NCBI GenBank assembly: GCA_015179025.1
Contig: WHUX01000032.1
Span: 186,001 to 250,000, forward strand
Direction: 5' to 3'
Origin: Terfezia claveryi
Lineage: Eukaryota; Ascomycota; Pezizomycetes; Pezizales; Pezizaceae
DNA: 64,000 bases
Below, piece after piece: positions 10,029 through 29,281 of this stretch. A program made the translations under genes and the position numbers. The notes below the pieces were generated by a model. The model was given only the letters and a program-made list of their open reading frames with translations. It was not told the DNA's origin and did not search any database. Every line of letters starts with the position of its first letter. The stretch's first letter is position 1.

Positions 10029-11427
10029 GAGTAGAGTGGGCGGCAGTATTATAGGCAAACTCAGCTAGAGGTAGCCATCGTTTCCAACGAGCTTGCCTAT
10101 CATGACAGTAGATGCGGAGGTACTGCTTAAGTGTTTGGACTGCTCATTCAGCAAGTCCATCAGTCTGAGGGTGATAGGCAGTAGAGAGGCGGAGGGTTAT
10201 GTTGAGCTTTTGGTTGAGCTCCTTGAGGAATCTAGAGGCGAATTGTGGACCACGGTCGGAGGTGATGTGTCTGGGAAGGCCATAAAGTCTCTATATCTCG
10301 TTAATATAGGTATCAGCAACATCGGATGCTGTCCATGTAGTCTTTGCCTGAATATAGTGTTGTACTTTCGTAAACCGGTCTGTGATAACGAGTATTGCAT
10401 TAAAACCTTCTGACTCTGGTAGCTCACCAACGAAGTCCATAGCTATTTCCTCAAATGGTCGTTCTCCAGTTAGCATTGGTACCAACTTCGTTTGCCTGCT
10501 ATGCCTATCTGCTTTTGCTTTCTGACACTTAGTACATCCTGCCACATAGTTCGCTATATCTTCCTGCCACTTATCCCATGTAAAATTTCTTGACACTAGC
10601 TCTTGAGTACGATGTCTTCCCCAATGTCCTACCACTTGACTATCATGGTGCTGTCTTAGCACTTCCAGCTTGAACTCAGAGGGTACCACCCATAGTCCAT
10701 CCTTCTTCTGCCATCCGACCACATCTATTCCTTCCACTTCAACATCTTCGGCTTCTTCTTCATCCTCTTCCCCTAGTACCATTAGTTGTCCATCTTTGAA
10801 AAATCTAGCATCCATGCCTGATTTCTCTTCCCCTGAATGTCTAGACAGGCCATCAGGCTTGCCCATCTTCGAACTGGGTCTGTAGTGAATATTGTAGATG
10901 AACTCGGACATGCGGAGGTACCAGGTAGCTTGACGGGAGTTGAGCTTCTGTTTGGTGTTGAAATATTATAACCCTTGGTGGTCTGTATAGACGTTCACTG
11001 GAATGCCAACCAACCAATCTCGCCACTTCCGGAAGCAATCCACGATTGCAAACAACTCTTTATTATGGATGGGCCAGTTGCGTTGAGCTGTGGAGAGGGT
11101 TTTTGCATGGTATTCAACGGGGTGAAGCTGCTTTCCTCCATTGACAACATGGTATTGAGAGAGGATACCAGCAATAGCTTGGTTACTAGCATCAGTCTCT
11201 ATAATTGTCTCGAGTTGTCTGTCAAACTGTGTAAGGATAGGAGCGGTGAGGAATCGTTCTCGGAGGTCATCAAAGGCTTGCTGTTGTTCGTGTCCCCAAC
11301 TGAAAGGAACATCCTTTGTCAAGTCGATTAAGGGGCGTGCCTTTGCACTATAGTTGACAATGAATCGACGGTAGTAATTAGCGAAGCCTAGGAATGCTTG
11401 AACCTCTTTCTTCTTCGTAGGAATAGG
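10029..11427 (-). pseudogene. Gypsy A integrase core, RNase H and end of RT
   Basis: On the minus strand from 11427: the RT end ([18 protein letters not shown]), RNase H (ETDASNQAIAGILSQY, VYTDHQGL), then the integrase zinc-binding module (HHDSQVVGHWG, CTKCQKAK) and core ([25 protein letters not shown]) up to AEFAYNTAAHST where P1 enters. One stop replaces the tryptophan seen in Gypsy C (INKIWRHYG), and a second stop lies after HQGL. The right limit is the hAT TSD at 11420-11427. Confidence 0.88.
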
Positions 11428-11577
11428 TAGTGTGCGCCACGGGGCGAGTACAACTCGGACCTGGTCGCCAAGACCCGCCTCGGCGAGTGAGTTTTGGAAT
11501 TTCAACAACTCGCCGAGTCGGCTTTCCTGTCCTACAACTCGACTCACGATTAATCGGTGATCTACAGATTACTCGCC
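11428..11577. repeat. hAT left terminal and subterminal inverted repeat
   Basis: Starts TAGTGTGCGCCACGGGGCGA and continues with several GGCGAGT/ACTCGCC motifs in both orientations, ending near GATCTACAGATTACTCGCC. The right end carries an imperfect inverse copy over ~145 bp. Clustered subterminal motifs are typical binding sites for hAT transposases. Confidence 0.85.
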
Positions 11578-11699
11578 AAGCCTACCCTGTTTCCTTTTTT
11601 TTTTTTATTGTTTTGTCCCGACTCTTCTATAATCTCATCACGTTTAACACCCTCATTCCATTCTCCTATATCTTGGTTGTCTTTGTATGACCGATTCTT

Positions 11700-11935
11700 T
11701 CTACCTTTACGGGTTGCTTGCACGGTGCCAGATTGCTTGTCTCGTATTCCTTGCACTATCACGGATTGTATGCACTATGCCCAATTGCCTGTCACGGATT
11801 CCTTGCACTATCACGGATTCCTTGCTTCTTTCACTATGCCAGATTGCCTGTCACGGATTGCTTGCACTGTCACGGATTGCTTGCACTGTCACGGATTGCT
11901 TGCACTGTCACGGATTGCTCCCACCCGCTGACGAA
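11700..11935. repeat. TCACGGATT minisatellite
   Basis: Tandem and degenerate copies of an approximately 19-20-bp unit, TCACGGATTGCTTGCACTG, some with intervening CCAGATTGCCTG. All carry the element-specific TCACGGA core. Confidence 0.9.
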
Positions 11936-12493
11936 CAATACTAGCAATCTGTACTACACGGCCAAACAAAATCCTTACCCAAATATCGGTTAAGAAATAT
12001 ATTAATATACCTTAAATAAATCACAAGACCCGTCACCATAACTATAACAAAAATCCTTCCCACATCCTACAAAACCTGAAAAATCCTTCCTAACCTCACT
12101 TGAGTTTACCAATAATCCCCCGTAAATCAATTCATACAACTATACAACATAGAAAGAAAAAAAAAAAACTCTTCAAAGCAAAACCAAATGCCCTAAACGT
12201 TCCCTAAAAAAAGCACTTGGCTGGTGGGATGGTGTTCAACTGGTAGGAAGTCGGGTACCGGAACCTAATTCGCCAAAGATTCCAATATTTACCTTGGCTG
12301 TCAGGCGTTCGGGTATCTGTGTTCCTTGGTAATTGACATCTAAACCGGAATCGTATAACATCAGGGCGGTCCCTCTTCGACCGTTGATGTAAACCTCCCC
12401 ACGTTGTGGTCGTTCTTGTAACTATATATTTCATCCTCAGTAACAGTGAACCTTCTGCTAGGTGATGTACGGTATGCTAACACAAGGGAATGA
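11936..12493. other. Spacer between the left hAT end and the H3-like gene
   Basis: AT-rich, with an A-run near 12152-12168. No gene seen; it probably contains the 3' UTR of the leftward H3-like gene. Confidence 0.4.
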
Positions 12494-13431
12494 TTATTGG
12501 ATACCTGCGCCTCCTCCTCCTGCTGCCCCTCCGCCTGCTACTGCCCCTACCGTTGCTGCTGCTTCTCCTCCTCCTCCTGCCCCTGGTCCTGCTCCGGCTG
12601 CTGCTGCTGCTGCTACCACCACCCCTGGTCCTCCCCCTGCTCCTGGTCCTACTCCTGCTGCTGCTGCTGCTGCTGCTCCTCCTCCTCCTGCCCCTGCTGC
12701 TGCTGCTGGCCCTCCTCCTCCGGCTGGTCTCGGTACTGCACGGCGTCCTCTTTTTGCTTTTTGGGGCATTCGTCGGCTCACAAGAGGTACATGTGGAAAT
12801 GCCCCCGGCATATTACCCCCGGCCAATATATTCTCCTGAATTTTATGCCATAGTCTAACATCCCGCTGTAGGATTGTTTGTCTATTGTGTGTTTCACCGC
12901 CTTGTGTTGCAATTAGGTTCACCGCTTTTTCCGTATTCGTGATTAGTCATATTTGTCCGTGACAGCATCTGTGACAGCATCCGTGACATATTTTGACTTA
13001 CTGGTGAAATACTCATGCATATATGCTTCCGCCACCTCCTGTATGGCATCTGTTACCCTCACTTGGATATGCTCTACATTATTCCAATCTATGAACTGCG
13101 AGTATTTGTCGTTATTATCCCTATTCACGTCTTGTACAATCTCCCTGCACAGCCTGCGAAATGCAATCTTCGGAAATATTAGGTCAACGCTTCTCTGTTG
13201 ATTCCTAATCTGACATACGAGGCTGACTGATAATACAGTTAGATTAGTCCTTTTTACTTCATGGAATGGAATGCTTCATGGAATGGAATGCTAACGTCCT
13301 TGTGACCACTTTCTTATGGTTTTTGGTGCCACCGCTTTTTGGGGGGGCACGACTGATTTTATATTCCTAGGGACTTGTGACCTCGCTGGTTGCCCGGGGT
13401 TTTTCTTCGGAACCTGCTTTGTTCTTGCCAT
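12494..13431 (-). CDS. Divergent histone H3 (H3-like/CenH3-like) with Gly/Ala-rich tail, three exons
   Basis: Exons: 13431-13296, 13226-13002, 12924-12494. Intron 1 (69 nt) has donor GTTAGC, branch CTAATCTAAC and acceptor ATCAG; intron 2 (77 nt) has donor GTAAGT, branch GACTAAT and acceptor AAAAG. Product 263 residues. The N-tail starts MARTKQ and aligns without gaps to H3 through Gly44, keeping K4, K9 and K36 but not K14 or K27. Then come alphaN (QIRNQQRS), alpha1 (KIAFRRLCREIVQD), a loop 1 about 14 residues longer than canonical H3, alpha2 (AIQEVAEAYMHEYF, then NLIAT across intron 2) and alpha3 (RQTILQRDVRLWHKI), keeping the Arg and Asp equivalent to R116 and D123. After about residue 150 follows a basic patch (RRMPQKAKRGRR) and ~100 residues of Gly/Ala. 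A long loop 1 recalls CenH3, but the function is unknown. No frame damage is seen. Confidence 0.82.
12513..12730. repeat. GCTGCT/CCTCCT simple repeat coding the H3-like C-tail
   Basis: Triplet-rich tract, mainly GCT, CCT and CTG on the plus strand. In the minus-strand gene frame it encodes Gly/Ala; other frames give Gln/Glu or Pro/Ala. The plus-strand frames here are shadows. Confidence 0.85.
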
Positions 13432-13552
13432 TCTTATATGTTAGCTGGTTAAAGGAGGCGATGAACTTGGTGACCCAGGGGCGATAGTGATGATCTTATA
13501 CGAGACGAAGCAACACAGAGCGTTGTGGGGATCCAGACCTAACTATCAAACA
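13432..13552 (-). promoter_or_regulatory. Remaining proximal promoter of the H3-like gene
   Basis: Only 121 bp separate the ATG from the P0 fold-back element, so P0 has split the upstream region; the displaced distal part should start at 18056. A TATA-like TATAAGA (minus strand) lies directly before the ATG. No other element is certain. Confidence 0.4.
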
Positions 13553-14321
13553 CATCAGGAAAGAAATTTTGGCGTCTGGACGCCCTGCAGAGGCGTCTGG
13601 ACGCCACCGTTTTTTACTCTGCCCCATGTGGCGTCCCGGGCACCCCGAACATGCCCTTCCGCCTAGTTGCCTCCCAGGGCAACCTGTATATGAGCAAGAA
13701 ATACATAGCATCCTGATGCCAACCTGCTCCACCTCGCTTCCCCCGACACCAGGTGTTCAGCTCCTCTGCGTCAGGACGCCCGGCACCCGCTACCCTGCCT
13801 CTGGAGGCCAGCTGCCCACCTTCCCTGCCTCGGGGCACCAGGTGTCTAACTTCCTTGCCTCCGGGCGCCAGGCGTCCACCTTCCCTGCCTCTGTTGGCCA
13901 GGCCAAATATGCCCCACGGGCCGAACCCGGCTCGGGAATACCCGCTGCGGTGGGCAGGTTCAACCCCACCCATTGCGAGTTCCCTGGGTCCCCAACCATG
14001 CCTTAGTTATTGTGTTTAGAACGGGTTGGCCTTTAGCTTCCCTAAAATACAGGCCAGCCCTGTGCTATCAAGCGTACACATAACTGAAGGCGCACTTGCA
14101 AACAAGGATAATAAATGACAATTGTATTTGAAAATCTTTATATACATAAACACGCATCCCATCCACCTCCCCATGTGACTCGTCAACCCTAGCCCATACC
14201 ACCTGCCCCCGACGTAGACCCGCGGAGATAATTCAACAATGCCCTAGACTTACTTCGCTCCTGGCAAATACGGCTAATACTGCGCATGGCGGTATATCGA
14301 AGCGAAGGGATGGTAGAGTTG

Positions 14322-14996
14322 ATATCGGAGGCAAGGCATTGGCGAGTTCATTGGCGAGTTCGGAGGCAAGGCATTGGCGAGTTCGGAGGCAAGGCATTGG
14401 CGACTTCGGAGGTAAGGCATTGGCGACTTGGGAGGCAAGGCATTGGCGAGTTCGGAGGCAAGGCATTGGCGACTTCGGGGGCAAGGCATTGGCGACTCTG
14501 GAGGCAAGGCATTGGCGACTTCGCAGGCAAGGCATTGGGGACTTCGCAGGCAAGGCATTGGCGAGTTCGGAGGTAAGGCATTGTCGAGTTCGGAGGCAAG
14601 GCATTGGCGACTCCGGAGGCAAGGCATTGGCGACTTCGCAGGCAAGGCATTGGGGACTTCGCAGGCAAGGCATTGGCGACTTCGGAGGCAAGGCATTGGC
14701 GAGTTCGGAGGCAAGGCATTGTCGAGTTCGGAGGCAAGGCATTGGCGACTCCGGAGGCAAGGCATTGGCGACTTCAGAGCCAAGGCATTGGCGACTCCGG
14801 AGGCAAGGCATTGGCGACTTCGGAGGCAAGGCATTGGCGACTTCGCAGGCAAGGTATTGGGGACTTCGCAGGCAAGGCATTGGCAACTTCGGAGGCAAGG
14901 CATTGGCGAGTTCGGAGGCAAGGCATTGGCAAGTTCGGAGGCAAGGCATTGGCGAGTTCGGAGGCAAGGCATTGGCGACTTCGGAGGCAAGGCAGT
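14322..14996. repeat. P0 left arm, 23-bp tandem array
   Basis: Nearly thirty copies of a 23-bp unit, GGCAAGGCATTGGCGACTT plus CGGA, with variants GAGTT, GACTC and GGGAC. Because 23 is not a multiple of three, the array cycles through all frames. It carries no stop in any of the six, so long false proteins appear on both strands. Confidence 0.95.
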
Positions 14997-15611
14997 CCTC
15001 ATATTTGCTGTATAGCCTAGATAATCCCGTCAAACTTGTCAGTTATGCTCGCACATCTCGGAGGCCTGCCAATGCTCTCACCTATATCAGCTGAACTTAC
15101 GCGCTCGTTGGAAGAACCCTATGAGCTCGGTTAGCTGTGCGTACACATATCGGAGGCCTGGCAATGCTCTCACCTTTAACAACTGAACTTGCTTACTAGT
15201 AGAAGAACCATATTAGCTAGGTCAGCTATGCGTGTATATATCGGAGGCCTGGCAGAGTGCTCTCATCTCGCTCGTAGTTCTAGAGGTTTGTAGACTTGTG
15301 TTGGGGATAAAATCCGAATGCCCTTGGGAATATTGAGAAGTGTGCCCGCGCCAGCCGCCATATTATTGTAGTTGGGATGGCCGGGAAACTTGGCGTATGC
15401 TGATCCACTCGACTGGGTATGATCAACCCCTCTTGGCAGCCCGCGGCTCGGGAATGCCTGGTAACTCGAGCTAGTGTTGTCTCGCAGCCAACCCGGCGCT
15501 ATGCCTGTACAGGCAATAGTCATATTTGGCTTCGTTGTTCCAAAGCCTACGTACTTTGGTAGGGACGGAGCTCCTCCATTCGCCAGCTCCACATACTATG
15601 TCATGTATTCG

Positions 15612-16045
15612 CCGCGAGAAACCCATGCTTTTGAGGCACATATATATATATATATATATGTGAGAAACGCAGGTTGTTGATGCTTATATGTATATATGCG
15701 AGAAACTCATGCTTTAGAGGCTTCTATATATATGCGAGAAACTCATGCTTTAGAGGCTTCTTTATATATGCGAGAAACTCATGCTTTTGAAGCACATATA
15801 TATGTATATAAGTATATATGAGAAACTCATGCTTTAGAGGCTTCTTTATATATGCGAGAAACTCGTGCTTTAGAGGCTTCTTTATATCTTCGAGAAACTC
15901 ATGCTTTTGAGGTACACATATATATATATCTATATATGCGAGAAACGCAGGTTGTTGATGCTTATATATATATATGCGAGAAACTCATGCTTTAGAGGCT
16001 TCTTTATATATCCGAGAAACTCATGCTTTTGAGACACATATATAT
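15612..16045. repeat. P0 loop array
   Basis: Tandem units of about 35-40 bp with TATATGCGAGAAACTCATGC followed by TTTAGAGGCTTC or TTTTGAGGCACA. It is related to the loops of P1, P2 and P3 (shared GCGAGAAACTC core). Confidence 0.9.
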
Positions 16046-16694
16046 ATATATGTTTACAGCATGCCTTCCTACAATATATACCAGCGGCGTATACATGGAC
16101 GCATAGCGAGGTTGCGACTGGATCCGTCCCTACCAAAGTACGCAGGCTTTGGGACAACGAAGCCAAATATGACTATTGCCTGCACAGGCATAGCGCTGGG
16201 TTGGCTGCGAGACAACACTAGCTCGAGTTACCAGGCATTCCCGAGCCGCGGGCTGCCAAGAGGGGTTGATCATACCCAGTCGAGTGGATCAGCATATGCC
16301 AAGTTTCCCGGCCATCCCAACTACAATAATACGGCGGCTGGCGCGGGCACACTTCTCAATATTCCCAAGGGCATTCAGATTTTATCCCCAACACAAGTCT
16401 ACAAACCTCTAGAACTACGAGCGAGATGAGAGCACTCTGCCAGGCCTCCGATATATACACGCATAGCTGACCTAGCTAATATGGTTCTTCTACCAGCAAG
16501 CAAGTTCAGTTGTTAAAGGTGAGAGCATTGCCAGGCCTCCGATATATGTATGCACAGCTAACCGAGCTCATAGGGTTCTTCCAACGAGCGCGTAAGTTCA
16601 GCTGATATAGGTGAGAGCATTGGCAGGCCTCCGAGATGTGCGAGTATAACTGACAGGTTTGACGGGATTATCTAGGCTATACAGCAAATATGAG

Positions 16695-17325
16695 GACTGC
16701 CTTGCCTCCGAAGTCGCCAATGCCTTGCCTCCGAACTCGCCAATGCCTTGCCTCCGAACTCGCCAATGCCTTGCCTCCGAACTCGCCAATGCCTTGCCTC
16801 CGAACTCGCCAATGCCTTGCCTCCGAAGTCGCCAATGCCTTGCCTACGAAGTCCCCAATACCTTGCCTGCGAAGTCGCCAATGCCTTGCCTCCGAAGTCG
16901 CCAATGCCTTGCCTCCGGAGTCGCCAATGCCTTGCCTCCGAAGTCGCCAATGCCTTGCCTCCGGAGTCGCCAATGCCTTGCCTCCGAACTCGACAATGCC
17001 TTGCCTCCGAACTCGCCAATGCCTTGCCCCCGAAGTCGCCAATGCCTTGCCTCCGAACTCGCCAATGCCTTGCCTCCCAAGTCGCCAATGCCATGCCTCC
17101 GAACTCGCCAATGCCTTGCCTCCCAAGTCGCCAATGCCTTGCCTCCCAAGTCGCCAATGCCTTGCCTCCCAAGTCGCCAATGCCTTGCCTCCCAAGTCGC
17201 CAATGCCTTGCCTCCGAAGTCGCCAATGCCTTGCCTCCGAACTCGCCAATGCCTTGCCTCCGAACTCGCCAATGCCTTGCCTCCGAAGTCGCCAATGAAC
17301 TCGCCAATGCCTTGCCTCCGATATC
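16695..17325. repeat. P0 right arm, 23-bp tandem array (inverse)
   Basis: About 27 units, the inverse complement of the left array (CCAATGCCTTGCCTCCGAAGT core). Unit number and variant order differ slightly from the left arm, so the arms have drifted since duplication. Confidence 0.95.
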
Positions 17326-18053
17326 AACTCTACCATCCCTTCGCTTCGATATACCGCCATGCGCAGTATTAGCCGTATTTGCCAGGAGCGAAGTAAGTCT
17401 AGGGCATCGTTGAATTATCTCCGCGGGTCTACGTCGGGGGCAGGTGGTATGGGCTGGGGTTGACGAGTCACATGGGGAGGTGGATGGGATGCGTGTTTAT
17501 GTATATAAAGATTTTCAAATACAATTGTCATTTATTATCCTTGTTTGCAGGTGCGCCCTCAGTTATGTGTACACTTAATAGCACAGGGCTGGCCTGTATT
17601 TTAGGGAAGCTAAAGGCCAACCCGTTCTAAACACAATAACTAAGGCGTGGTTGGGGACCCAGGGAACTCGCAATGGGTAGGGTTGAACCTGCCCACCACA
17701 GCGGGTATTCCCGAGCCGGGTTCGGCCCGTGGGGCATATTTGGCCTGGCCAACAGAGGCAGGGAAGGTGGACGCCTGGCGCCCGGAGGCAAGGAAGTTAG
17801 ACACCTGGTGCCCCGAGGCAGGGAAGGTGGGCAGCTGGCCTCCAGAGGCAGGGTAGCGGGTGCCGGGCGTCCTGACGTAGAGGAGCTGAACACCTGGTGC
17901 CTAGAGGCAGCGAAGGCATCAGGGCGCAAGGACTCGGGAGGTACGGCGTCAGGAGGACGGGTGTCCCGACGGTGGCCCACCAGCTTGTCAGTTTGCCTTT
18001 TGGGCGCCTGTGGCGTCAGCGGCACGAAAGGCAAACTATTTTCTTTTCTGATG

Positions 18054-18737
18054 CAATGAATCCAAGTTTGCCTGCACGTTCCCTCAAGTTAGCTTAGATA
18101 CATCGATAAAGGAAACCCGACAAAGGAAACGCGACAAATGAAACCCAACAAAGGATATCGACAACTAGCTGTTAGGCTGTTAGTCGTGTACACAATTAAG
18201 CTGAACAAGCATCGTCGTGGCAGATTAACTCGCCTTTTGCCAAATTCCTTTTGGGGACTGACTCATTTTGGCCCCCTTAACGGGGCTGCATATGGGTTAC
18301 TTTTGCCTGCAGGTGGGCTGGGATTACCGGAGGAGACCAGACAAGCTGGGAGGCGATATATACTAGAGTATATATATATACCTATCTATCTCATATGCAA
18401 CCTTAGAACACCGAGGGACTAGTGCAAGCTGACTCATGAGTTGTACCCCAGTCTAAGCCTGCACCACTAGCCTAATATACCGGGCTTGTGCCAACCAGAC
18501 TATACCTTAAGTACTCTATTGTCTACCTAGCGACTAGTCTATACTAACCTATTGCTGTATCCAAAAGAATAATAAATCAACAATCCTGACCCACAATGAT
18601 ATATCAAACAACCAATACCAAACATTCCATCAGATGACAAGGAAATAGAGAAATAATTGCTGGACAACATAGGGATCTGTGACAAAATATAAATTCCGTG
18701 ACAAAGTATAAGCTCTGTGACACCCCATACGTGGTCG
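18054..18737. other. Spacer between P0 and the acidic-tail gene
   Basis: Starts with the right P0 TSD and the displaced upstream region of the H3-like gene. Near 18490 is GTGCCAACCAGACTAT, similar to the start of the copia LTR (3370s), perhaps an LTR scrap. CTGTGACA/CCGTGACA copies occur at 18678-18725. No gene seen. Confidence 0.4.
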
Positions 18738-20095
18738 TTATTCATCTTGTTCTTCTCCCTCGACATCATCCTCTCCTTCACCCTCTTCATCCTCTTCATC
18801 CTCTTTATCCTCTTCATCCTCTTCATCTTCTTCATCCTCTTCATCCTCTTCACCCTCTTCATCTTCTTCATCCTCTTCATCCTCTTCACCTTCTTCATCC
18901 TCTTCACCCTCTTCACCCTCTTCATTCTCTTCATCCCCTTCTTCCACTTCATTCTCCTCAATCCCCTCCACATCCTCGTAATCATCATCATCTGTGTCAC
19001 TCGGGGTAAGTCCTGGGGGTGAATCGCCACCAAGATGAGGCAATCCTTTTTGACGTAGCCTCGATGCTGGCCATAATGAAGTTTCGATTACGCTATCCTT
19101 TACCGAATATACCTTGGCATCATCGTTGGAATCAGTAAGCTCGGCCTCAGTGTCAGATGATGAAAGGTCGTCCTCTAGAACCTGGCCATCGCTTTCATCC
19201 TCGGAGTCCTATGCTATGGTGAATAATATATCACACTTCTGAAGGGAGAGATACATACGGGTTCAATATCCTCAACTGCATCACTTAAACAATCTTCCGC
19301 ACCCCCTTCAGCTATTTCCATTTCCTGTATGATCCGATCAGCTATGGCAATTGCATCGTCCTGTGCATGTGGCTGTTCAATTGGGCCCTCGAACCGTGCG
19401 TATGCTTGGCGTAAAATGGGCTCAACACTAACAACGACGCTAAACTCATTTACTGGCTTTGTTCCCGTTTCTTCCAAATCACCTTCTGGAATTGTAAATG
19501 CCGGTATATTATCACCTTCGCCTAGCTCAAGATAAAACCTCTTCTGCGCTTGGGAGAGCCCATACCAGCAATATAAAATATACACCTTCTTCCGAACTAA
19601 CATTACCTCCCAGGTCTTTTGGACAAGTCGTTCGAACTTGCCGCATTGCACATCACTGAGCTGATTCCTCTTCGTCCCAATTGGTGCACCGGTAACAGTG
19701 GCATGCTCACTCTCCGCCACGCCAGCTTTGAGAGCCCTGTTAACTTTTTGGCGCTTCCAGTCTTTGGCTCGTTCGAACGCTAGAAGTGGACCCAGCAATC
19801 TTTTCTGAGTTTCCCGGATTTTTCTGGTGTGTGGATTGGTTGATGTTCCCCAAACTTTACGACCCCCACTAAACTCTTTGTCTGGGTCGAATTCTTTTGA
19901 GCCTCAAGGAAATTCCGCATACTTCTCATATGGGTTTACTGGCGTAACTGGGGCTAGGGCAGGCGTGGCTAGGATAGGCGTGACTGGCACAGTTGTTACA
20001 GAAGTCTTTCTCCGTTTGCATTTATCTGTTGTTCGATTCCCGGATGTTGTGTTCCTCTTCGATGGCATCTTCTTTTTCTGTACGGGGCCTACCAT
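18738..20095 (-). CDS. Unknown cargo protein with long Glu/Asp-rich C-terminus, two exons
   Basis: Exon 1 is taken from the ATG at 20095 (a second ATG is at 20068) to 19259. A 50-nt intron (19258-19209, GTATGT...CATAG) leads to exon 2, 19208-18738, in phase 0; about 435 residues if one in-frame TGA (19906-19904) is bypassed. The N-terminus is basic (MPSKRN, KCKRRK). The middle has no recognised family (motifs VWGTSTNPHTRKIRETQKRL, CGKFERLVQKTWEV, LSQAQKRFYLELG). Exon 2 begins DSEDESDGQVLEDD and ends with about 75 residues of nearly pure Glu/Asp. Such tails occur in histone chaperones and other nuclear proteins, but nothing else supports that role. The frame is open further upstream to 20332 through VTDG repeats, possibly non-coding. 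The TGA may be a RIP-type change or part of an unrecognised intron. Confidence 0.6.
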
Positions 20096-20165
20096 TGTGA
20101 TCCCTTGCTTTGATAGTCTGTTTTTTTGGCTACACGCTTTCTTGTCAGATCTATGGACGTCCTGG

Positions 20166-20290
20166 ACACCATCCGTGACACCGTCCGTGACACCGTCCGT
20201 GACACCGTCCGTGACACCGTCCGTGACACCATCCGTGACACCGTCCGTGACACCGTCCGTGACACCGTCCGTGACACCGTCCGTGACACA
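20166..20290. repeat. 12-bp CCGTGACA minisatellite
   Basis: About ten copies of GTGACACCGTCC (or CCATCC). Each contains the element motif CCGTGACA. On the minus strand it reads VTDG repeats in frame with the acidic-tail gene. Confidence 0.95.
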
Positions 20291-20332
20291 GCCCTTGGAG
20301 CACTTTGGATCATGCATGACCTTGGAGCACAT

Positions 20333-20883
20333 ACCTGCAGAAATGAGGCCTTCTAACCGGCGCTGGCGATAGCCAATAGTGGGTATTATACTGGACGCAG
20401 CATGAGACTTCTACAATTCAGCGAATTACACTATCTTTCCAATTCAGGCAACCCGCAAGGACACAACCTTTGAATATTCTGAGGCCAAGTTATGTGGGTT
20501 AAAATGTCTGTGATGTCTCTGTCAGTAATCTTTCCACCCGCGACTTGCATAGCTGGTCTCCGGTTACAGAACTTAAAGCACTTACCCCTGAATTATCGTG
20601 AGCACAATTTATGTAGGTTGAACTGTCAATGTTTGTTGTGAGAAATGAATGAGATTCTCAGATGCCTCACAAGTTACAGCGAGTTGAAGTGAACAAAGGG
20701 GCAAATTGAACAAAGGGGGAAATTGAACAAAGGCATGCATTCATTCTTTGTATGCAAGCAAACGATCGAGACTACAAGCAAACTTGGATGTTACAAACCG
20801 AAAAAGGAAAATGTGACTTGTATTACTACTAAGCGAGCATATGTCACTAAGCGCATAGATGCATTCCAAATAAACCAGATTTA
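20333..20883. other. Spacer
   Basis: No convincing gene. It includes the upstream region of the acidic-tail gene and the 3' side of the next leftward gene. Confidence 0.4.
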
Positions 20884-21786
20884 TTATTTCTTAAAATTCA
20901 TGGTTATAGGGCCAATATGGGCAATATGGATATTTGAACAGCTAGGCCCGATAAGATGCCCTTCCATTGAGCTGACCATCTCAGGCTGTCTACCTAGACC
21001 TACCCTCCTTTTTTCCCTCCGCTTCCGATCGCGAGCCCTTCGTTGCTTGCGGAGGAGCCACTGTTTAGCGTCCATAGTCCTGAGGGGAGCAACCTCATCC
21101 CCATCCTCATCAGGCAAATGACTTATTACTCGCAATGGGGAACGGGGCTTCACTGGGCAGAAACCAGAAGGGGCGGGGTCTAAAATCATGGGACGTTCTT
21201 GGAAGGCAGAAGCAGATGTAATAAATTGGGATAATTCATATTGCGTGCTTGGGACGGGCTTCTCATTCTCCTTGTTCTCCGGCTGCTCGCTAGGAAAATC
21301 GTCTTCAACTTCCTCACCATCTGTAGGTGCTTCGCTTGGGGTGGCAGGGACTTCTACTGGCCTGCGAGACTGGTAGCGCCGCAGATATCGGTTCCTAAGA
21401 TCACTAGAGTAAAATTCGGATTAGCCGCAGGCTTATAACAAGGTCCTGTTGTTTTCAAGTGATGTGCCCACCACACCGCTATAGCGCCTATTTCTGTCCA
21501 CTGGAGCCTTAACTATTTTCTACCACTACAAGCCGCGGTGCTTTTGGCACGTGCAGTTGCCTATGGCTTCCAAAAGCTCAGTCCCCAGGGAGCAATGAAA
21601 ATACGATCAGAATCTATCCAGTGCAACCGGTCAATTGGGCAAGCCCATTAAGCCCAGAATCGCAAATACCAAGATTACGCGGGATAACTGCAAAACGATG
21701 ATATTGGGCAAGAAACTAAGTATGAGAAGTTCATACCTTGGGGCCATGCTTTGCTCTGGGATTCCTGTGCTCGAGTTGGTATGCAT
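20884..21786 (-). CDS. Unknown basic cargo protein, two exons
   Basis: Exon 1 is 21786-21737 (ATG, MHTNSSTGIPEQSMAP). A 333-nt intron (21736-21404) has donor GTATGA, branch GGCTAATCC and acceptor CTCTAG. Exon 2, 21403-20884, is in register; product 189 residues. It contains LRNRYLRRYQSRRP, an acidic stretch (DGEEVEDDFP, ENKENEK) and a strongly basic segment WLLRKQRRARDRKRREKRR that would act as a nuclear signal or bind nucleic acid. No known family recognised. The frame is intact. It lies in the same orientation as the H3-like and acidic-tail genes, forming a leftward cargo block. Confidence 0.6.
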
Positions 21787-22124
21787 AGTATTGTTCAGTG
21801 TGTGAGATCTTGAGGATGAGGATTATGGTAGTTGAAGAAGTAGCGTAGTGATTGCTGTTACTGTAGTTGAAGGAGCAGCGAGGACATGCGGATTTTATCT
21901 ACCATTGCTATGGCCACTAGCTGGCTATGGTCCACCCTCCAGCCCCTTGATGTCTCTATTGCTAAAGTAAAGGAGTCTCAGAAACGAGATAAGACTATGC
22001 AACTTAGAGCGAAGAAAAAAAGCCAATACCCGATCGGTATGTGGCTGGTCATTACATGTGGAGGTATCTTCTACACGATTGGGAGTTTGATATGGTTGGA
22101 ATCACCCGGCGGTTAGTTGGTTGT
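21787..22124. other. Spacer upstream of the basic-protein gene
   Basis: Promoter side of the leftward gene. A plus-strand frame at 21886-22116 has no supporting features. Confidence 0.35.
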
Positions 22125-22535
22125 CTTGTCATGGATTGTTTGTCTTGTCACAGACTAGTTGACTTATTACTTTGTTGTCTTGTCACGGATTGACTGTCTT
22201 GTCACGGATTGGATTGTCTTGTCACGTACTTGTTGACTTGTTAGTCGGTTAGCACTTGACTTGTCACAGACTGATCGTCTTGTCACGGACTTATCACTGA
22301 GTGATTGTGTTGGTACGTACTGGTTGACTAGTCTGGTTGCACTACCCCTCATAGTTGTCACGGACTAGTTGACTTGTTAGTCTCGATCAGACCCTCGTAG
22401 AGGTTGACTTGTGAGGAGGGTGTTGTGCCAACTAGACTATTGACTTGTCACGGACTAGTTGACTTGTCACGGACTAGTTGACTTGTCACGGAATAGTTGA
22501 CTTGTCACGGACTAGTTGACTTGTCACAGACTGGT
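22125..22535. repeat. TGTCACGGA minisatellite
   Basis: Irregular array of GACTTGTCACGGACTAGTT-type units (about 19 bp), with a break (22320-22440) holding GTTGTGCCAACTAGACTA, similar to the copia LTR start. All array units carry TCACGGA or TCACAGA. Confidence 0.9.
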
Positions 22536-22840
22536 CACTGCTGAGCAGTTTGGTACTTGCGGTTATCCCAAGCAGGCGTAGGTATTTCGTAGCATTACCG
22601 AATATGGTCACATACCGTAGAGCTCCAGTTATTCGGTAGTGTAATTTCAAATTGGGCAGCATACTTAAGTAGTGTTTCTGTTGAGGCTTAACTAAGCAAC
22701 TTTACCCAGCAGGTATAGATTTCATAAGCTAAGTAACCAGATCTTAGCACACTACTAGGTATGTAGGCCAGATTGAAATAAGGCTACTGAGTAACTAGTA
22801 TGTACCGATCTAAAGTAGAATAAAGAGGTACGTAAACAGG

Positions 22841-23029
22841 ATACTGTATCCACTGGCGAACAACGATCCTTGTCAGTTTAATGACATAGGCCGAGCTTAT
22901 GCAGTAAAGGTGATGTCCGAGTACAAAACAGGTGGTGGTAACATGCTCACTGACTTGCTAATAATGATGTCTGCAGCGAAAGTCAGAGAACTAACAAGGA
23001 TCATTATTCGCCAGTAGATGCAGTATTAC
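22841..23029. repeat. MITE-like inverted repeat
   Basis: Left arm 22841-22873 (ATACTGTATCCACTGGCGAA then CAACGATCCTTGT) pairs with the right arm 22995-23027 with four mismatches, all transitions. A ~120-bp non-coding centre lies between. No clear TSD. Confidence 0.65.
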
Positions 23030-23133
23030 AATATCCAGATAATTCCTAGAATAGGCAATAGTCATTGAATATGAGCAACGAGTTTTTTCTTTTTTAAAAA
23101 TGAAAAATAAAAAATAAAATAAATGAATAAAAC

Positions 23134-23184
23134 TATATATATATATAGCATGTAGGTATTGCCATTTCATATTAGCCTAACAAT
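23134..23184 (+). promoter_or_regulatory. TATA box and leader of the 23.2-kb gene
   Basis: A TATATATATATATA tract (23134-23147) lies about 40-50 bp upstream of the ATG at 23185, which has the context CAATATGG. The leader would be short. Confidence 0.5.
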
Positions 23185-24230
23185 ATGGCGGAGAACTATT
23201 ACAACCCGGATGATGAAGAGTCGTTTGAACGCTTCAGAGTGTTGTGGGAGCAGGACAATAGACTACAATATTTCCTGAGCCTGGGTAGCAGTGAATTGGT
23301 AAAATTTAAGGCTACGCTGTTGGTTATGGAACGATTCGACCCAAGCAGGATTGAGTCTCGAGTAGCAGCCCAAGTACTCCTTGAGCTGATCTGGATAGGT
23401 CGGTACCACTTACGCCCTGGGACCACGTCTACTTGGGATCCATTTTACTTAGACGACTATACTCTTTACGATTTATTGTGGGTTACTCTTTTCAACTTTT
23501 ACCTGACTCTCTGCCGACCAACTACCAATGGCATGGGTGCGTTATCCTGGGGTATATGCGAAAATTGTCAATTTCTATCTGTAAGTTGACACTGGGCCGA
23601 AGAACATCTGAGCCGTAACTTACCTTATTCTAGGTGCTTTCCGAGACCCATCGAATACCAGACGCCTTGGTGTCTCGACGTCATGTATTTGTGCCCCAAC
23701 CATGGCACCCATCGCCCAGAATAATAGTACAATGTTGTGGGGAGCGCATCTCGCTTCTACCTTCCCGAAGGCATGTTCTTGATGTTGCATCTAATCACAA
23801 TGTCAGACTAACTCCATGTAGACCTCCAGAGATTATCAACTTCTACGCAATGCCCGACTGGACTTGGAGATGCTCTTTACTACAATGGAACACTCTCACA
23901 TCTAGCGAGAGTGATACGGACGTGGAAGTGGATATGATTGTGGACAATGTTGAAGAGTGTGCAGTGGATTCGGAGTATAGTGGTTCCTCAGGTGCATCCT
24001 GCTCAACCAATAGTGAAAGCTTTGGCTCTCCAAGCGAGCTCTGGGGGTCGTCTTCTAGTTTGGAAAGCTTACAAGCTTCAGAAGCGTCAGAAGCGTCAGA
24101 AGCCTCAGAAGCCTCAGAAGCATTGGAAAATGACGATTGGAGTACGCATTGGCCTGTGCGGAGGATTGCGGCTTTGGATTGGAATTGGGTTTGGTGTGCA
24201 GTAGATGCGCAAGGGTCGGCCAATAACTGA
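23185..24230 (+). CDS. Unknown cargo protein, two exons, 330 residues
   Basis: Exon 1 is 23185-23580; a 53-nt intron (23581-23633) has donor GTAAGT and acceptor TTCTAG; exon 2 is 23634-24230, in phase 0. The first half is rich in aromatic residues (DPFYLDDYTLYDLLWVTLFN) with a CENC pair at the exon end. Exon 2 continues with VSRRHVFVPQPWHPSPRI, QCCGER and FYAMPDWTWRC, then a Ser/Glu-rich acidic part with SEA repeats, ending in a tryptophan-rich segment (DWNWVWC). No known family recognised. Intact, on the same strand and just upstream of the transposase, so it could be an accessory protein of the element or captured cargo. Confidence 0.7.
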
Positions 24231-24350
24231 CATTTCTTTCCTACTGTATCCTTACTTGTGTAACCTTGTATACAACGTTGAGTTTTTGAATTGAAGAGGC
24301 ACTACAAGTACCTATGGCATTGGATATGCGCCTCTCGAAGCCACCCACTT

Positions 24351-24470
24351 TTCCGTGACAGAAGTGGTTTTCCGTGACAGAAGTGGTTTTCCATGACAGA
24401 AGTGGTTTTCCATGACAGTAGCGGATTTCCGTGACAGAAGTAGTTTTCCGTGACAGAAGTCCGTGATACT
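24351..24470. repeat. CCGTGACAGAAGTGGTTTT minisatellite
   Basis: About six copies of a 19-20-bp unit with the CCGTGACA (or CCATGACA) core, between the 23.2-kb gene and the transposase. Confidence 0.92.
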
Positions 24471-24583
24471 GTCCCCTCTATCCTAGAGAGTTAATAAATA
24501 TGTTCAATTCCCTGATGTATTGCTTGACCAGTTCACCAACTACAACAGCCTGAAAGTATCAACCGCCAACCCCTTTTACCAAT

Positions 24584-27531
24584 ATGTCTATCTCTCCAAA
24601 CGTCCTGGTCCCTTCATTTGCGATAGATTCGTCCCTCACCAGGATTCTAGGGGGTACTGCGTTCAAGTGGGAGGCTGAGAAGTCTGCCTGTTTTACAGAA
24701 TGGTGGGAGACGACCGAATGGGCTGGCAAAGTCCGTGACAATCTTGCCAAGGACATGCTGAATCGAAACAATATTAGCCCACCACGATGGGATTCCAAAC
24801 TGCGAATGGCAATGCACTGGGCTCAATTCGGTCAAGGCGCAAAGGTCAGTAGTGGAGAACCTTTCATATATTGCTTGGGTTGCAACAGTTCGTTACAGCA
24901 CCCGAGTGCATTCAACTTGGGTACGATACATATGAAATCACACCTGAGCTCTGGGAGATGCCGCGCCGCAACTGGGCGAAAGAAGGAGGATATTGCCAAC
25001 ATGTTTGTGAGGGTAATTATATAATCCGTGCCAATGCAGAATACGCAGACTGATATTATCCGTAGGCTGCAACTACTACTGCTATACAAGTTCCTCAATT
25101 TAGTGATGATGTATTTCAATATGAACTGATGAAAACGGTCATTGCATCCAACCTACCTTTCCGGACAATCGAGTATCCACAATTCCACCACCTCCTAAAC
25201 CTTCTCAGGCCTCGAATAAATATCCCCAGTGCAACTATACTTCGGCGTAGTATACATCATTATGCAGCGGAAATTCAAGCGAAGCTCAAGAAAAGCCTTC
25301 CAGACAATACATTGCTTCACCTCGCCACTGACTGTTGGACCTCACCTAATAAATTAGTATTTATGGGTACAACACTCCACTACATAGACAAAGAATGGCA
25401 AGTGCATCAACATACTATCGGATTCCAATTCCTTGGAGGGGAATCTCATAATGCAGTACAACTGGCCAATAAGCTAAGCCAAATAATCCGGGACTTGGGT
25501 ATCACTAGCCGGGTCTTAGCTATTGTCTCAGACAATGCTAGTGTCAACATAGCACTGGCCAAGCATTTACAGGCAAATGTATTCTGTCCAAAGTGGAATG
25601 CGGAGCAATATAGACTTCCCTGCCTTGCACATGTTATCACGTTGGTGAGCAACCAGTTTATGAAAGAACTTAAGTCAAGCCCAGATAATGATGACACTAT
25701 CTCATCCGCTCCTCAAGTGGAGACTTCAATCAAAGCACTGCAAGGGTATACGCCAGGTACATTTGCGCGATCAGTATGCAAGGTTAGTCATATTTGCTCT
25801 GCAATAACCCCGTCACAGAATTCCACATGTCATGGAATTACACAATGTCACAGAATTCCATATGTCACGGAATTCCACAATGTCACGGAATTCTATCCCC
25901 CAATCCCATGTGCTAACAGTTTTCCAGGTTCGGGAGCTGTGTAAAGCTATAGTGGCTAGTCCTCAACGGTTGGCACAATTCAAAGAACTCCAAAATGACA
26001 CTCCTGTGCCAATGGGCCTCATACAGGACGTCAGAACTCGGTGGAACTCCACCTTTGACATGCTTACGCGAGCATTGCGACTACAGTATACATTGAACAA
26101 TGGATCAGTCTGACTACAACTGAAGGAAAGTATAGCCTATTGTGGCTGAGTAAAGAAGAATGGGCCCAAGTTCAGGAGGCTATAATTTTTCTGAAACCGC
26201 TCTCTGATTATACACATGCTATTTCCACAGGCCAGCATGCGACTATACACAACGCGTTATTCATCTACAACGACATTTTCGACCACATCGAAAAACAACG
26301 CAAACGTATACGCAAACTTCCAGCCAGCGCGACGTGGGCACCAGGATTTTTGTGCGCAACGAAAGGCTGTCACCTCATATTGCAGAAGTATTATTCGAGA
26401 ACGGAAAAACAATCACTTATCTACAATCTAGCGACTATCCTGGATCCATCTAAGAAGTTATCCTTGTACGCGGATTGGGGAAATGTCTCGGTACAGGATC
26501 CTACCATGAATTAGGAGGCTGTTGACTGCATACCATACACAGAATATTACCAGTAAGTATCAATTCTATGAACGTTATGGAGTACATTCCGTGACAACAG
26601 ATGTATCCGTGACATTATGAAACGAATGAGAATCTGACCTTATTGGGTACTTAGAGTACAGTTTGAGGAATATTTTGATATCAACTACGCCAGGTACGCA
26701 CTGGAGCCCCAGGCTCAGAAGAGTCGCCTCGACGATTCAGAGCAATCCTACATCATGCGTCGACTACAAGAGTGGACAGTGACCAAATCAGAGAATATTC
26801 CGGAGGTCAAGAGATACTTAACTAGTAGTCTGGCCATACTAGATGGGCAGTGTCCCCTATTCTGGTGGAAGGTTCATGCCATTGAATACCCGACGCTAGC
26901 ACGAATGGCAAGGGACATATTGAGTATTCCATTGACATCTGTGGCTGTTGAGCGTATATTCAGCGGTACTCGAGATATTTTGCCTTACCACCGGAACCGA
27001 ATGGGTCACTAGATGATCACAGCGCTAATGTTGACGAAATCTTGGGACTCGATACACACAAAATATACAGAACCAGACCCTGAGAACACTCCTGCACATG
27101 TGGAAGAAGGATTAGCTGATCATGATGAAATTGATGTGAGCCAGGAGAGACAGGCTCTCAGATATGACGCAGAATTCCTCTGCCGCATGATGCCAGTCAC
27201 TCTAGATGGACCATCAGGAAATGGTGATACGGTGTCAGAGTATGAGAGTAGCGTGGAGGGAGAGGAAGAGTTTGAGGGAGATGATCTTGATGTGGGAGAT
27301 ACAACTTCTCAGATTTCTAGCCCATTCAACAATTTCAGTGCGCAGTCAGCGGGAGGAATTGGCTTATTCCAAGGCAGCCTATTGAGGGAGGAAAGAGGGA
27401 CCCCAACACCCTGCACCCCACATCGCGGGACTAAGCGCCCTGCCTCTCCATCCGTCAACCTGACGCCTTCAATGGCAACGAGGCTTCAGAAAAAGTTACG
27501 GCCCACTCAGCGTAGGAATTACAAAGTGTGA
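24584..27531 (+). pseudogene. hAT transposase, four exons, recently inactivated
   Basis: Exons 24584-25006, 25066-25782, 25928-26552 and 26655-27531, with GT-AG introns of 59, 145 and 102 nt. Summed length minus a 2-nt insertion gives 879 codons. N-terminal zinc finger: CLGCNSSLQHPSAFNLGTIH then MKSHLSSGRC (BED-like). The core has LHLATDCWTS and VLAIVSDNASVN, then DVRTRWNSTFDML. The C-terminal hAT dimerisation domain reads FWWKVHAIEYPTLARMARDI, SVAVERIFSGTRD and LPYHRNRMG. Damage: a 2-nt frameshift near 26085-26095 and TAG stops at 26512-26514 and 27010-27012. An acidic, Ser/Thr-rich tail follows (to 27531). Introns 2 and 3 contain TGTCACGGA/CCGTGACA copies. Confidence 0.9.
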
Positions 27532-28364
27532 GCCTGCATACTTGAGGGGGTGCAAACCGAGGTAGGTATGGTCAATTATCCTTTGTTCATTGTTTTTTTC
27601 CTTTGTCCTTTGTACCTGAGTTTTGCTTTTTCCTATTAGCTTCCCTTGTATGGGTGAGTTTCTTTTTGTGCGTGGGTTTCCTTAATGTGTTGTTTTTTTG
27701 GTTGAATTGTGATTATTATGACGAGCGACACCAGGGTGGATTAGTTCTCATAATGAATCCACGGTTGATACTCTTTTTTATTTTTTTTATTTTGGTCATT
27801 GATTACTTACGGGATGTAAATTGAGTTTGGGGAGAATGGGAATAATTCATGATGTGGAACTGTGGGCACTTCTTGGGTGGACGTAGGAATCTTGAGAGCA
27901 TTTATGTATGAATTATTATTAAGATAGGGCGGATGGAGGGTTTAGGGATTAGAAGCAAATGTGAGAAATTTGGTTGCAAGGAAAAGGATAACATGAGGAC
28001 GAGTAGGTAGGACGTTTGATATAGAATGTGTGGACGTATGGCAGTACAAACAGAGCATAGAGAACGTGAGAGGGAAATTTGAAAGAATGGTTGTAGAAAT
28101 CGTGACAGCAGAAGCAATCCGTGACTAAGAATGGTGACATTGGCAAAAACCATACAAAGGGACAGGAACAGGGTTTGGTGGGATCGGTGCCATGCTAGAA
28201 GATGAAACGAGCGATCCGTGACAAGACTGGCAATCCGTGACAAGAGTGGCAATCCGTGACAAGACGGGCAATCCGTGACAAGCCATATGCACGGACGAAT
28301 AGGGGAAAGAACGGAAAACCCTGGACTTGGCAAATGCACAAGTATGAACGAGGTTAGTAAGGGA
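27532..28364. other. Spacer between transposase and right hAT end
   Basis: T-rich downstream region with no gene. At 28205-28280 four tandem copies of CAATCCGTGACAAGA carry the element motif. A minus-strand frame running from the RT through here (to 27902) is read-through of the gypsy frame into the hAT end, not a protein. Confidence 0.5.
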
Positions 28365-28508
28365 TCTTGATGAGTAATCTGTAGATCATCGATTAATCGG
28401 CGAAGTGGTCCGAGGCGAGTTGCAGTAGGCAGAGACCAAGGCGAGTCGATAGCCGAACAAGTTGTAAGGGCCAGAAACTCGGACCGACTCGCCCCGTGGT
28501 GCACACTA
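28365..28508. repeat. hAT right terminal and subterminal inverted repeat
   Basis: Inverse of 11428-11577: GAGTAATCTGTAGATC, then CGATTAATCGGCG, several GGCGAGT/ACTCGCC motifs, and the terminus CCCCGTGGTGCACACTA. It is directly followed by the TSD GGAATAGG. Confidence 0.85.
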
Positions 28509-29281
28509 GGAATAGGCCACTTGGACATGGTTTCGAGCTTGGAGGGATCCATTTGGACGTGTTGGCCATTGATAATATGACCGAGGAATAAGGTCTCTTG
28601 GACATGGAATTCGGACTTCATGAGGTTAATAGCTAACCCATGTTGGATGCATTGCTGAAGAACTTTTTCGACTATTTGTTGATGTTCTTCCTCTGTCTCA
28701 CCTCCGTAGATAAGTATGTCGTCCAAGTACCAGATACATCCTTCCATATCCTTGAAGATTGTATCCATTATCTCTTGAAATGTAGCGGGGGCATTGGTCA
28801 ACCCAAATGGCATTACGGTATACTCGAATAGTCCCTTTTTCGTCCTGAATGCTGTCTTCCATTCGTCTCCTGGTGCAATCCTGATGAGATTATACCCATT
28901 TTTGAGGTCCAATCGTATGAACCATTTACCTCCACGAGTTCTATCAAGCAACTCGGAGATGAGAGGGAGTGGGTATTTGTTTGGTATTGTGAGACGGTTA
29001 AGGGATTGGTAATCGACACATAGCCTTAAAGATCCGTCTTTCTTTCGAACAAATAGGATGGGAGTACCAGCGGAGGAGCGTGAGTGTCGGACTTTGGTAG
29101 TGGGGAGGTTCTCATCAAGGTACTTAAGAAGGGCTTCGTCTTCCTCCTATGTGGTCTTGTAGATAGCCCCGAATGGTATCTTTGCGGTTGGGTCTTGGAG
29201 AGGGATTTCGTGGTCCCACAGCTTGTATTCAGGGAGTCTAGCTGCCTGTTCTGCGGTAAAGCAATGTGTGTAACGAGAGTA
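28509..29281 (-). pseudogene. Gypsy A reverse transcriptase, N-terminal part
   Basis: Minus-strand frame with [18 protein letters not shown], then [33 protein letters not shown] and the catalytic [10 protein letters not shown], up to [10 protein letters not shown] where the hAT enters. It continues at 11419. The catalytic aspartates are intact here. One stop (CTA on the plus strand near 29147) breaks the upstream linker. Confidence 0.88.

Follow-up and report, generated by a model that had tools for sequence, protein, structure and literature searches.

A divergent histone H3-like gene carried by a hAT transposon lineage of Terfezia claveryi may be a resident gene of the element

The window, that is, the whole 64,000-nucleotide stretch of Terfezia claveryi DNA analysed here (contig WHUX01000032.1, positions 186,001 to 250,000), contains a hAT DNA transposon with a divergent histone H3-like gene inside it. 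The initial annotation, made from the sequence alone, had described this gene as a divergent three-exon minus-strand gene with two GT-AG introns and a 263-residue product, and had placed it within the TIR/TSD limits of the hAT. The coordinates, the introns and the product length were all borne out, and the 22-bp TIRs, the 8-bp TSD and the transposase were all found. The features of the locus are the following.

11420..11427 (no strand): TSD, 8 bp, GGAATAGG
11428..28508 (no strand): hAT DNA transposon of family A, 17.1 kb including a nested 4.5-kb insertion, recognised by its TIR pair, TSD and transposase
11428..11449 (plus strand): left TIR, 22 bp, TAGTGTGCGCCACGGGGCGAGT
13431..12494 (minus strand): divergent H3-like gene, three exons, 263 amino acids, ATG at 13431
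13296..13431 (minus strand): exon 1, N-terminal tail, without detectable similarity to H3 past ARTKQ
13227..13295 (minus strand): intron 1, 69 nt, GTTAGC...CAG, with a branch-like CTAAC
13002..13226 (minus strand): exon 2, alpha-N, alpha1, loop 1 (14 additional residues) and alpha2; Pfam PF00125
12925..13001 (minus strand): intron 2, 77 nt, GTAAGT...AG, with a branch-like TGACTAATC about 18-19 nt from the acceptor
12494..12924 (minus strand): exon 3, end of alpha2, loop 2 (about 5 additional residues), alpha3, a GGNMP motif and a Gly/Ala-rich extension
13553..18053 (no strand): nested insertion, not part of the hAT, with inverted-repeat arms of about 1.9 kb, tandem repeats and CATCAG...CTGATG ends
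18738..20410 (minus strand): gene Y, upstream of the H3-like gene, whose basic stretch and Glu/Asp-rich C-terminal part lie in different frames owing to an intron or a frameshift
23176..24230 (plus strand): gene X, no Pfam match
24554..27531 (plus strand): hAT transposase gene, Dimer_Tnp_hAT above the cut-off and a weak DUF659 match below it
28487..28508 (minus strand): right TIR, the inverse of TAGTGTGCGCCACGGGGCGAGT with one mismatch in 22 (21/22 equal)
28509..28516 (no strand): second copy of the TSD, 8 bp, GGAATAGG, identical to the first

A comparison of the 263-residue product with histone models, which had been proposed as a check, gave a match to Pfam Histone (PF00125) of 38.4 bits over residues 1-186 of the joined product, above the cut-off of 26.4. 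The 110-residue frame that holds exon 2 scored 25.1 bits, just below that cut-off. The match is thus better once the exons are joined at these sites. A histone H3 is the top match among solved structures (E = 2e-10). The fold core keeps R69, L70, R72, E73, I74, Q76 and D77, and also N108, L109, R116, T118, I119, D123 and L126; H113, which belongs to the H3-H3′ interface, is replaced. In the alignment, loop 1 has 14 residues more than in H3, in agreement with the initial estimate of about 14. The fold motifs had also been said to stand at the expected spacing, and this fails at loop 2, which has about 5 residues more than in H3. Both introns begin with GT and end with AG, although the intron 1 donor, GTTAGC, is not a strong site. 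An acceptor of intron 2 at 12901, tried by hand, was dropped for that at 12925, which retains the end of alpha2 (VNL) and the 263-residue product.

The tail had been described as aligning to H3 ungapped as far as Gly44, with K4, K9 and K36 kept. Only the MARTKQ start stood, and the K4 end is kept in the tail of the hAT-borne protein; the similarity does not go beyond ARTKQ. Residues 6-44 have 5 identities to H3 in 39 positions, which was equalled by 25,824 of 100,000 shuffles. Since they do no better than shuffles, the kept K9 and K36 are no evidence of a conserved tail, and homology to H3 over the full tail was rejected on this shuffle test.

The element has four genes. In the transposase, the hAT dimerisation domain (PF05699) was found with an E-value of 8.2e-17; the frame that holds it is 124 amino acids long in the window copy versus 297-301 in several other family A copies. 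Pfam gave nothing significant for genes X and Y. Acidic tails like that of Y are common in histone chaperones, and the tail of Y is only suggestive of such a role. A 178-aa ORF upstream of Y (20884-21420, minus strand), open in copy L018 too, could belong to Y as its first exon or represent a fifth gene. The hAT sits in an ORF with a retrotransposon RNase H domain. All 16 other family A copies inspected for it, of 19, have the same left end, and family A copies without interruption are about 12.6 kb long (TIR pairs on contigs C21 and C773 span 12,574 and 12,596 bp).

Is the H3-like gene found in other copies of the element, as had been suggested for a check? A DNA search of the 72.6-Mb assembly gave 47 matching rows, 38 gene copies were extracted, and related families were found as well. 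The TIR pattern, with up to 2 mismatches, matched 66 times in forward and 48 times in reverse orientation genome-wide, and a control pattern gave 0 matches. The pairing of TIRs is based on 100 of these 114 matches. Among the matches listed, at least 23 facing TIR pairs were found; all six pairs of 12.6-19.5 kb enclose a family A H3 gene together with a transposase match, and none of the 17 shorter pairs (16 of 2.6-3.6 kb and one of 9.0 kb) contains a family A H3 gene. The H3-like gene is therefore not needed in cis. Short pairs without it occur on contigs C31, C190, C198, C277, C104, C511 and others, and the pairs of 2.6-3.6 kb are probably non-autonomous derivatives. A TIR pair of the B/C type (C45:106594-124454) encloses matches to the transposase, Y and H3. 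About 20 genome matches were seen for a TIR variant, TAGCGTGCGCACCGAGGCGAGT, two mismatches from the query, which may belong to another family of the hAT lineage.

With the family B exon, 111 rows at E ≤ 0.01 came from a protein search, including the host H3 and CenH3 and fragments of the same locus. In total, the genome has about 100 loci of the H3-like kind, which belong to at least three families related to one another (A, B and C); the proteins of these three are 53-77% identical over the fold. As read by eye, intron 2 has the same position and phase in all three families and intron 1 in A and B; the family C copy is uncertain for intron 1 as its exon 1 is not clean. The ARKS motifs of K9 and K27 were found in none of the family A, B and C tails read. 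The Gly/Ala-rich C-terminal extension of the initial annotation is present in the window copy but is not a common feature. The low-complexity extension is His/Pro-rich in L053 and L054 of family B and cut by an early stop in L057, and the single family C copy (L056) is short and ends soon after GGNMP. A remote family D (contig C27) is H3-like by Pfam with 32.3 bits. Its loci are at C27:9895-17189, C143:32887-39737, C245, C90:350443-356068 and C572, with about 44-49% identity in the transposase and about 27-34% in Y. In those on C27, C143 and C245, an H3-like match lies beside Y (E-values of 0.001-0.007 with the family B exon as the query).

The order of the four genes is kept: the transposase and X share one strand, and Y and H3 share the opposite one. 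X lies about 3 kb, Y 6.2-6.9 kb and H3 8.2-9.0 kb from the transposase in many copies of families A, B and C. The counts of gene order cover 105 transposase rows (of 150) and 93 Y rows (of 118), without further pieces of a copy already counted and without weakly matching, distant hATs; the X and H3 rows were thinned in the same way. An H3-like match lies within 30 kb, on the side and strand expected, for 47 of the 105 transposase matches, while such a match is on the wrong side in 6 and on the wrong strand in 5. The neighbourhood of Y is tighter: H3 lies downstream on the same strand within 10 kb in 68 of 93 Y matches, 58 of them at a distance of 1.36-1.83 kb, and any other arrangement was found in only 4. 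No H3-like match is in place for 58 of the 105 transposase matches (25/42 in A, 25/52 in B/C and 8/11 in D), which may be explained by truncation, contig ends and decay.

Exon 2 was compared between families over 73 codons with one copy per family. A versus B gave a pN of 0.307 and a pS of 0.822, A versus C a pN of 0.340 and a pS of 0.879, and B versus C a dN of 0.175 and a dS of 0.925, a ratio of 0.19. As judged from these sequences, one copy per family, the H3-like protein appears to have been conserved between families while silent sites diverged or became saturated. Within family A, the window copy was compared with 14 chosen of 34 copies, and dN/dS is about 0.3-0.63 in 13 of them and 1.0 in one, as expected if decay after insertion is mixed in. 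The family A alignment has 35 rows (the 38 extracted copies minus L044, L045 and L046; a broken copy on contig C253 was excluded), and 33 of them are disrupted somewhere. The start, every splice site and the full-length frame are undamaged only in the window copy and L011, and five of the 35 have an open histone fold with the start and splice sites intact. L010, L012 and L019 are broken only in the extension; L016 has an open frame with a changed donor. Neutral decay of the copies had been named in advance as evidence against a gene owned by the element. Decay is indeed seen within family A, but the constraint between families remains, and hence the decay within A can be a matter of what follows insertion. 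Summed over 34 copies, the differences from the window copy are 1700 transitions and 195 transversions, and those of the C-to-T type are commonest at CpG and CpA. The pattern resembles RIP or the loss of methylated cytosines. From this bias, the host appears to attack the element.

The initial annotation knew of no described transposon with an H3 gene. This was wrong, since hAT-borne H3-like genes are described in two papers on Dothideomycetes (PMC3538342, PMC6710886), both of which, in their available text, interpret the genes as products of transduplication. Manning et al. 2013 (PMC3538342) described a Pyrenophora tritici-repentis hAT with an H3L gene; according to the available part of the paper, their alignment sets H3L apart from both H3 and CenH3, ESTs were reported, drift was suggested, and altered chromatin was raised as a possibility. 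As described there, that element has in common with the present one the TIRs, the transposase, a further ORF (central there) and a divergent H3-like gene. Compared by description, it is 5.6 kb long and forms one nearly uniform family read as recently expanded (PMC3538342, available part), whereas the element described here is about 12.6 kb with four genes and exists in several families that are 53-77% identical in the fold and show signs of long constraint. An H3-carrying hAT was also reported from Pseudocercospora fijiensis and five other Mycosphaerellaceae by Dhillon et al. 2019 (PMC6710886). In the text available, this element is about 9.5 kb long and has an 8-bp TSD, a 20-bp TIR, DUF659 and one or two H3-like copies, and C-to-T decay by RIP is described for it, a C-to-T-type bias being present here as well. 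The P. fijiensis copies are presented there as captured from the housekeeping H3, without introns and all of them inactivated. In contrast, the gene described here has two introns, seen from the alignment and the conservation of splice sites, an intact window copy and constraint between families. A 16-aa insertion in the second P. fijiensis H3 copy (PMC6710886, available part) might match the long loop 1 found here. In the available portions of the two papers (PMC3538342, PMC6710886), no statement was found on conservation across transposon families or on constraint on transposon copies. Thus, a transposon-borne H3 is already known as a kind, and what is new is that the gene looks like a resident rather than a passenger.

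Could the present gene be a passenger too? A hAT may have captured a host H3 (transcript) and spread it unused, its divergence resulting from drift and decay. Such passive transduplication is the published reading of similar elements, as for P. fijiensis (PMC3538342, PMC6710886, in their available parts), and would agree with the disruption of 33 of 35 family A copies, with the absence of the H3 gene from 17 of the 23 TIR pairs among the matches listed, and with the many transposase matches that have no H3 beside them. I consider it improbable nonetheless. The exon 2 comparisons, with one copy per family, indicate constraint between families, introns are common to A and B at two positions and to C at one, the gene recurs beside Y in each of the families A to D, and the proteins form one clade that includes metagenomic relatives. 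In addition, an identity of about 34% to the host H3 with an intact frame is unexpected for an unused capture.

Is the protein a centromeric variant instead? Like CenH3 (CENP-A, Cse4), it has the H3 fold, a long loop 1 and a poorly conserved tail, so that a CenH3 captured from the host was considered. By profile search, the host has its own CenH3-like gene at C773:158053 (L047) and its own H3, of ascomycete appearance, at C153:8707 (L048); additional H3-like loci that do not belong to family A were picked up by the same search. Identity of the window protein to CenH3 (33.0%) does not exceed that to H3 (34.3%). CenH3 is not mobile and, in the host and human rows, does not have the additional loop 2 residues. 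In the tree, the A, B and C proteins and the metagenomic P0001 and P0002 group together in a single clade (97/98), separate from the rows of H3 and CenH3, so that the phylogeny proposed earlier with the host H3 and CenH3 places the hAT-borne proteins apart from both. The tree outside this clade, including the H3 and CenH3 rows, is not resolved. Family D sits on a very long branch that does not join this clade, with an unsure placement. Capture of CenH3 was rejected on this tree, as the clade contains no CenH3 row, and I regard it as extremely improbable.

A search with the exon-2 alignment gave 9 proteins at E ≤ 0.001 out of 12 candidates. P0001-P0005, all from metagenomes, are read as relatives and P0006-P0009 as other H3-like proteins; the tree labels of P0006, P0007 and P0009 as H3 and of P0008 as CenH3 are guesses. 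The exon-2 block is present in the five metagenomic proteins too. As seen from amino acids only, each of their frames continues into GK, SK or CK at the point where the GTAAG of intron 2 is expected to begin. Eighteen relatives of the transposase were found, 15 of them 60-80% identical. On the other side, a protein search with residues 1-165 of the 263-aa product gave 39 candidates, none of them at E ≤ 1e-4, and a scan of viral contigs gave 30 pattern matches, none of which was confirmed.

The initial suggestion that the element carries its own H3 variant is supported by the other copies, by the related families with common introns and gene order, and by the constraint between families. I therefore favour, with a probability of about one half, the reading that the H3-like gene is a resident, selected gene of a four-gene hAT lineage and that its protein is used in chromatin or in transposition. 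The parts of this reading are not equally firm. From the sequences, the gene is very probably a selected element gene, and the protein is rather likely to act in chromatin with H4. An anti-silencing role is put forward tentatively, and a role in helping transposition more hesitantly still.

How might such a protein work? The element would express it, and the short copies that lack the gene suggest that it acts in trans. It would pair with the host H4 via the kept histone-fold core, a pairing favoured by the kept fold residues. Variant nucleosomes or tetramers might be assembled on transposon DNA, perhaps with the help of the acidic-tailed protein Y. Since ARKS is the usual context of K9 and K27 methylation, particles with a tail that lacks ARKS would be unable to receive the usual heterochromatin marks, and, with both DNA-contacting loops enlarged, they might wrap DNA less tightly. 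Such unmarked or looser particles would allow the element to escape silencing, or would expose its ends to the transposase. The GRKT motif in the tail of family D counts against a general loss of ARKS. Furthermore, tetramers or octamers may not form, because H113 is replaced and loop 2 is enlarged.

These same changes could instead point to a non-nucleosomal role, in which the protein is a DNA-binding part of the transposition complex and its fold and enlarged loops bend or hold the transposon ends. The 14 additional residues in loop 1 and the roughly 5 in loop 2, the altered H113 and the non-H3 tail would fit this, as would the presence of the gene, also with transposase matches, in all six long TIR pairs among the matches listed. 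However, the fold-core residues named above are kept, and the short copies that consist only of ends suggest that the ends suffice in cis. This alternative is possible but rather doubtful. A dominant-negative histone is less likely again. It would compete for H4 and chaperones with the H3 or CenH3 of the host, and a genome-wide weakening of heterochromatin would help all copies. The kept histone-fold core with a changed tail is consistent with it, and the short copies that lack the gene would agree with action in trans. Strong toxicity would nevertheless hurt a host with about 100 such loci, though 33 of the 35 family A copies are disrupted.

The reading of the gene as a resident, selected part of the element has a parallel in fungal DNA transposons that repeatedly carry TET/JBP genes, which were argued to be anti-silencing genes (PMC12730594, available part). 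In both cases, a DNA transposon carries an epigenetic gene and an escape from silencing has been proposed. TET/JBP, unlike the histone here, is an enzyme acting on DNA methylation; in the available text of that paper, the word "histone" is used four times and histone genes do not appear (PMC12730594). More speculatively, and I would sooner doubt than accept this, an old hAT lineage in several fungi may carry an "escape histone" with an acidic partner, which would replace the host H3 on transposon DNA with a form not open to H3K9 or H3K27 methylation; the H3 "captures" of Dothideomycetes hATs would then be mostly decayed members of the same kind. If this is true, the element changes the substrate of silencing and does not erase marks. 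Enzymes that counter silencing are known from transposons, whereas a selected histone of their own would hit silencing at its substrate. With these data, a published curiosity, the hAT-borne H3 as an accident, becomes a testable claim that the element has this gene as a conserved component. A natural divergent H3 in which both DNA-binding loops are enlarged also lends itself to the question of which parts of H3 are required.

The nested 4.5-kb insertion at 13553-18053, next to the H3-like gene, is a fold-back element, perhaps with a 2-bp CA duplication. It is absent from 17 of the 19 other fetched copies, which read straight through this site (with a 300-bp filter). A second inverted-repeat structure lies outside the hAT at 7398-10031, of which 7398-9413 pairs with itself; it is rich in tandem repeats coding for YIYIYAR, and pieces of it were also seen in L015 and L019.
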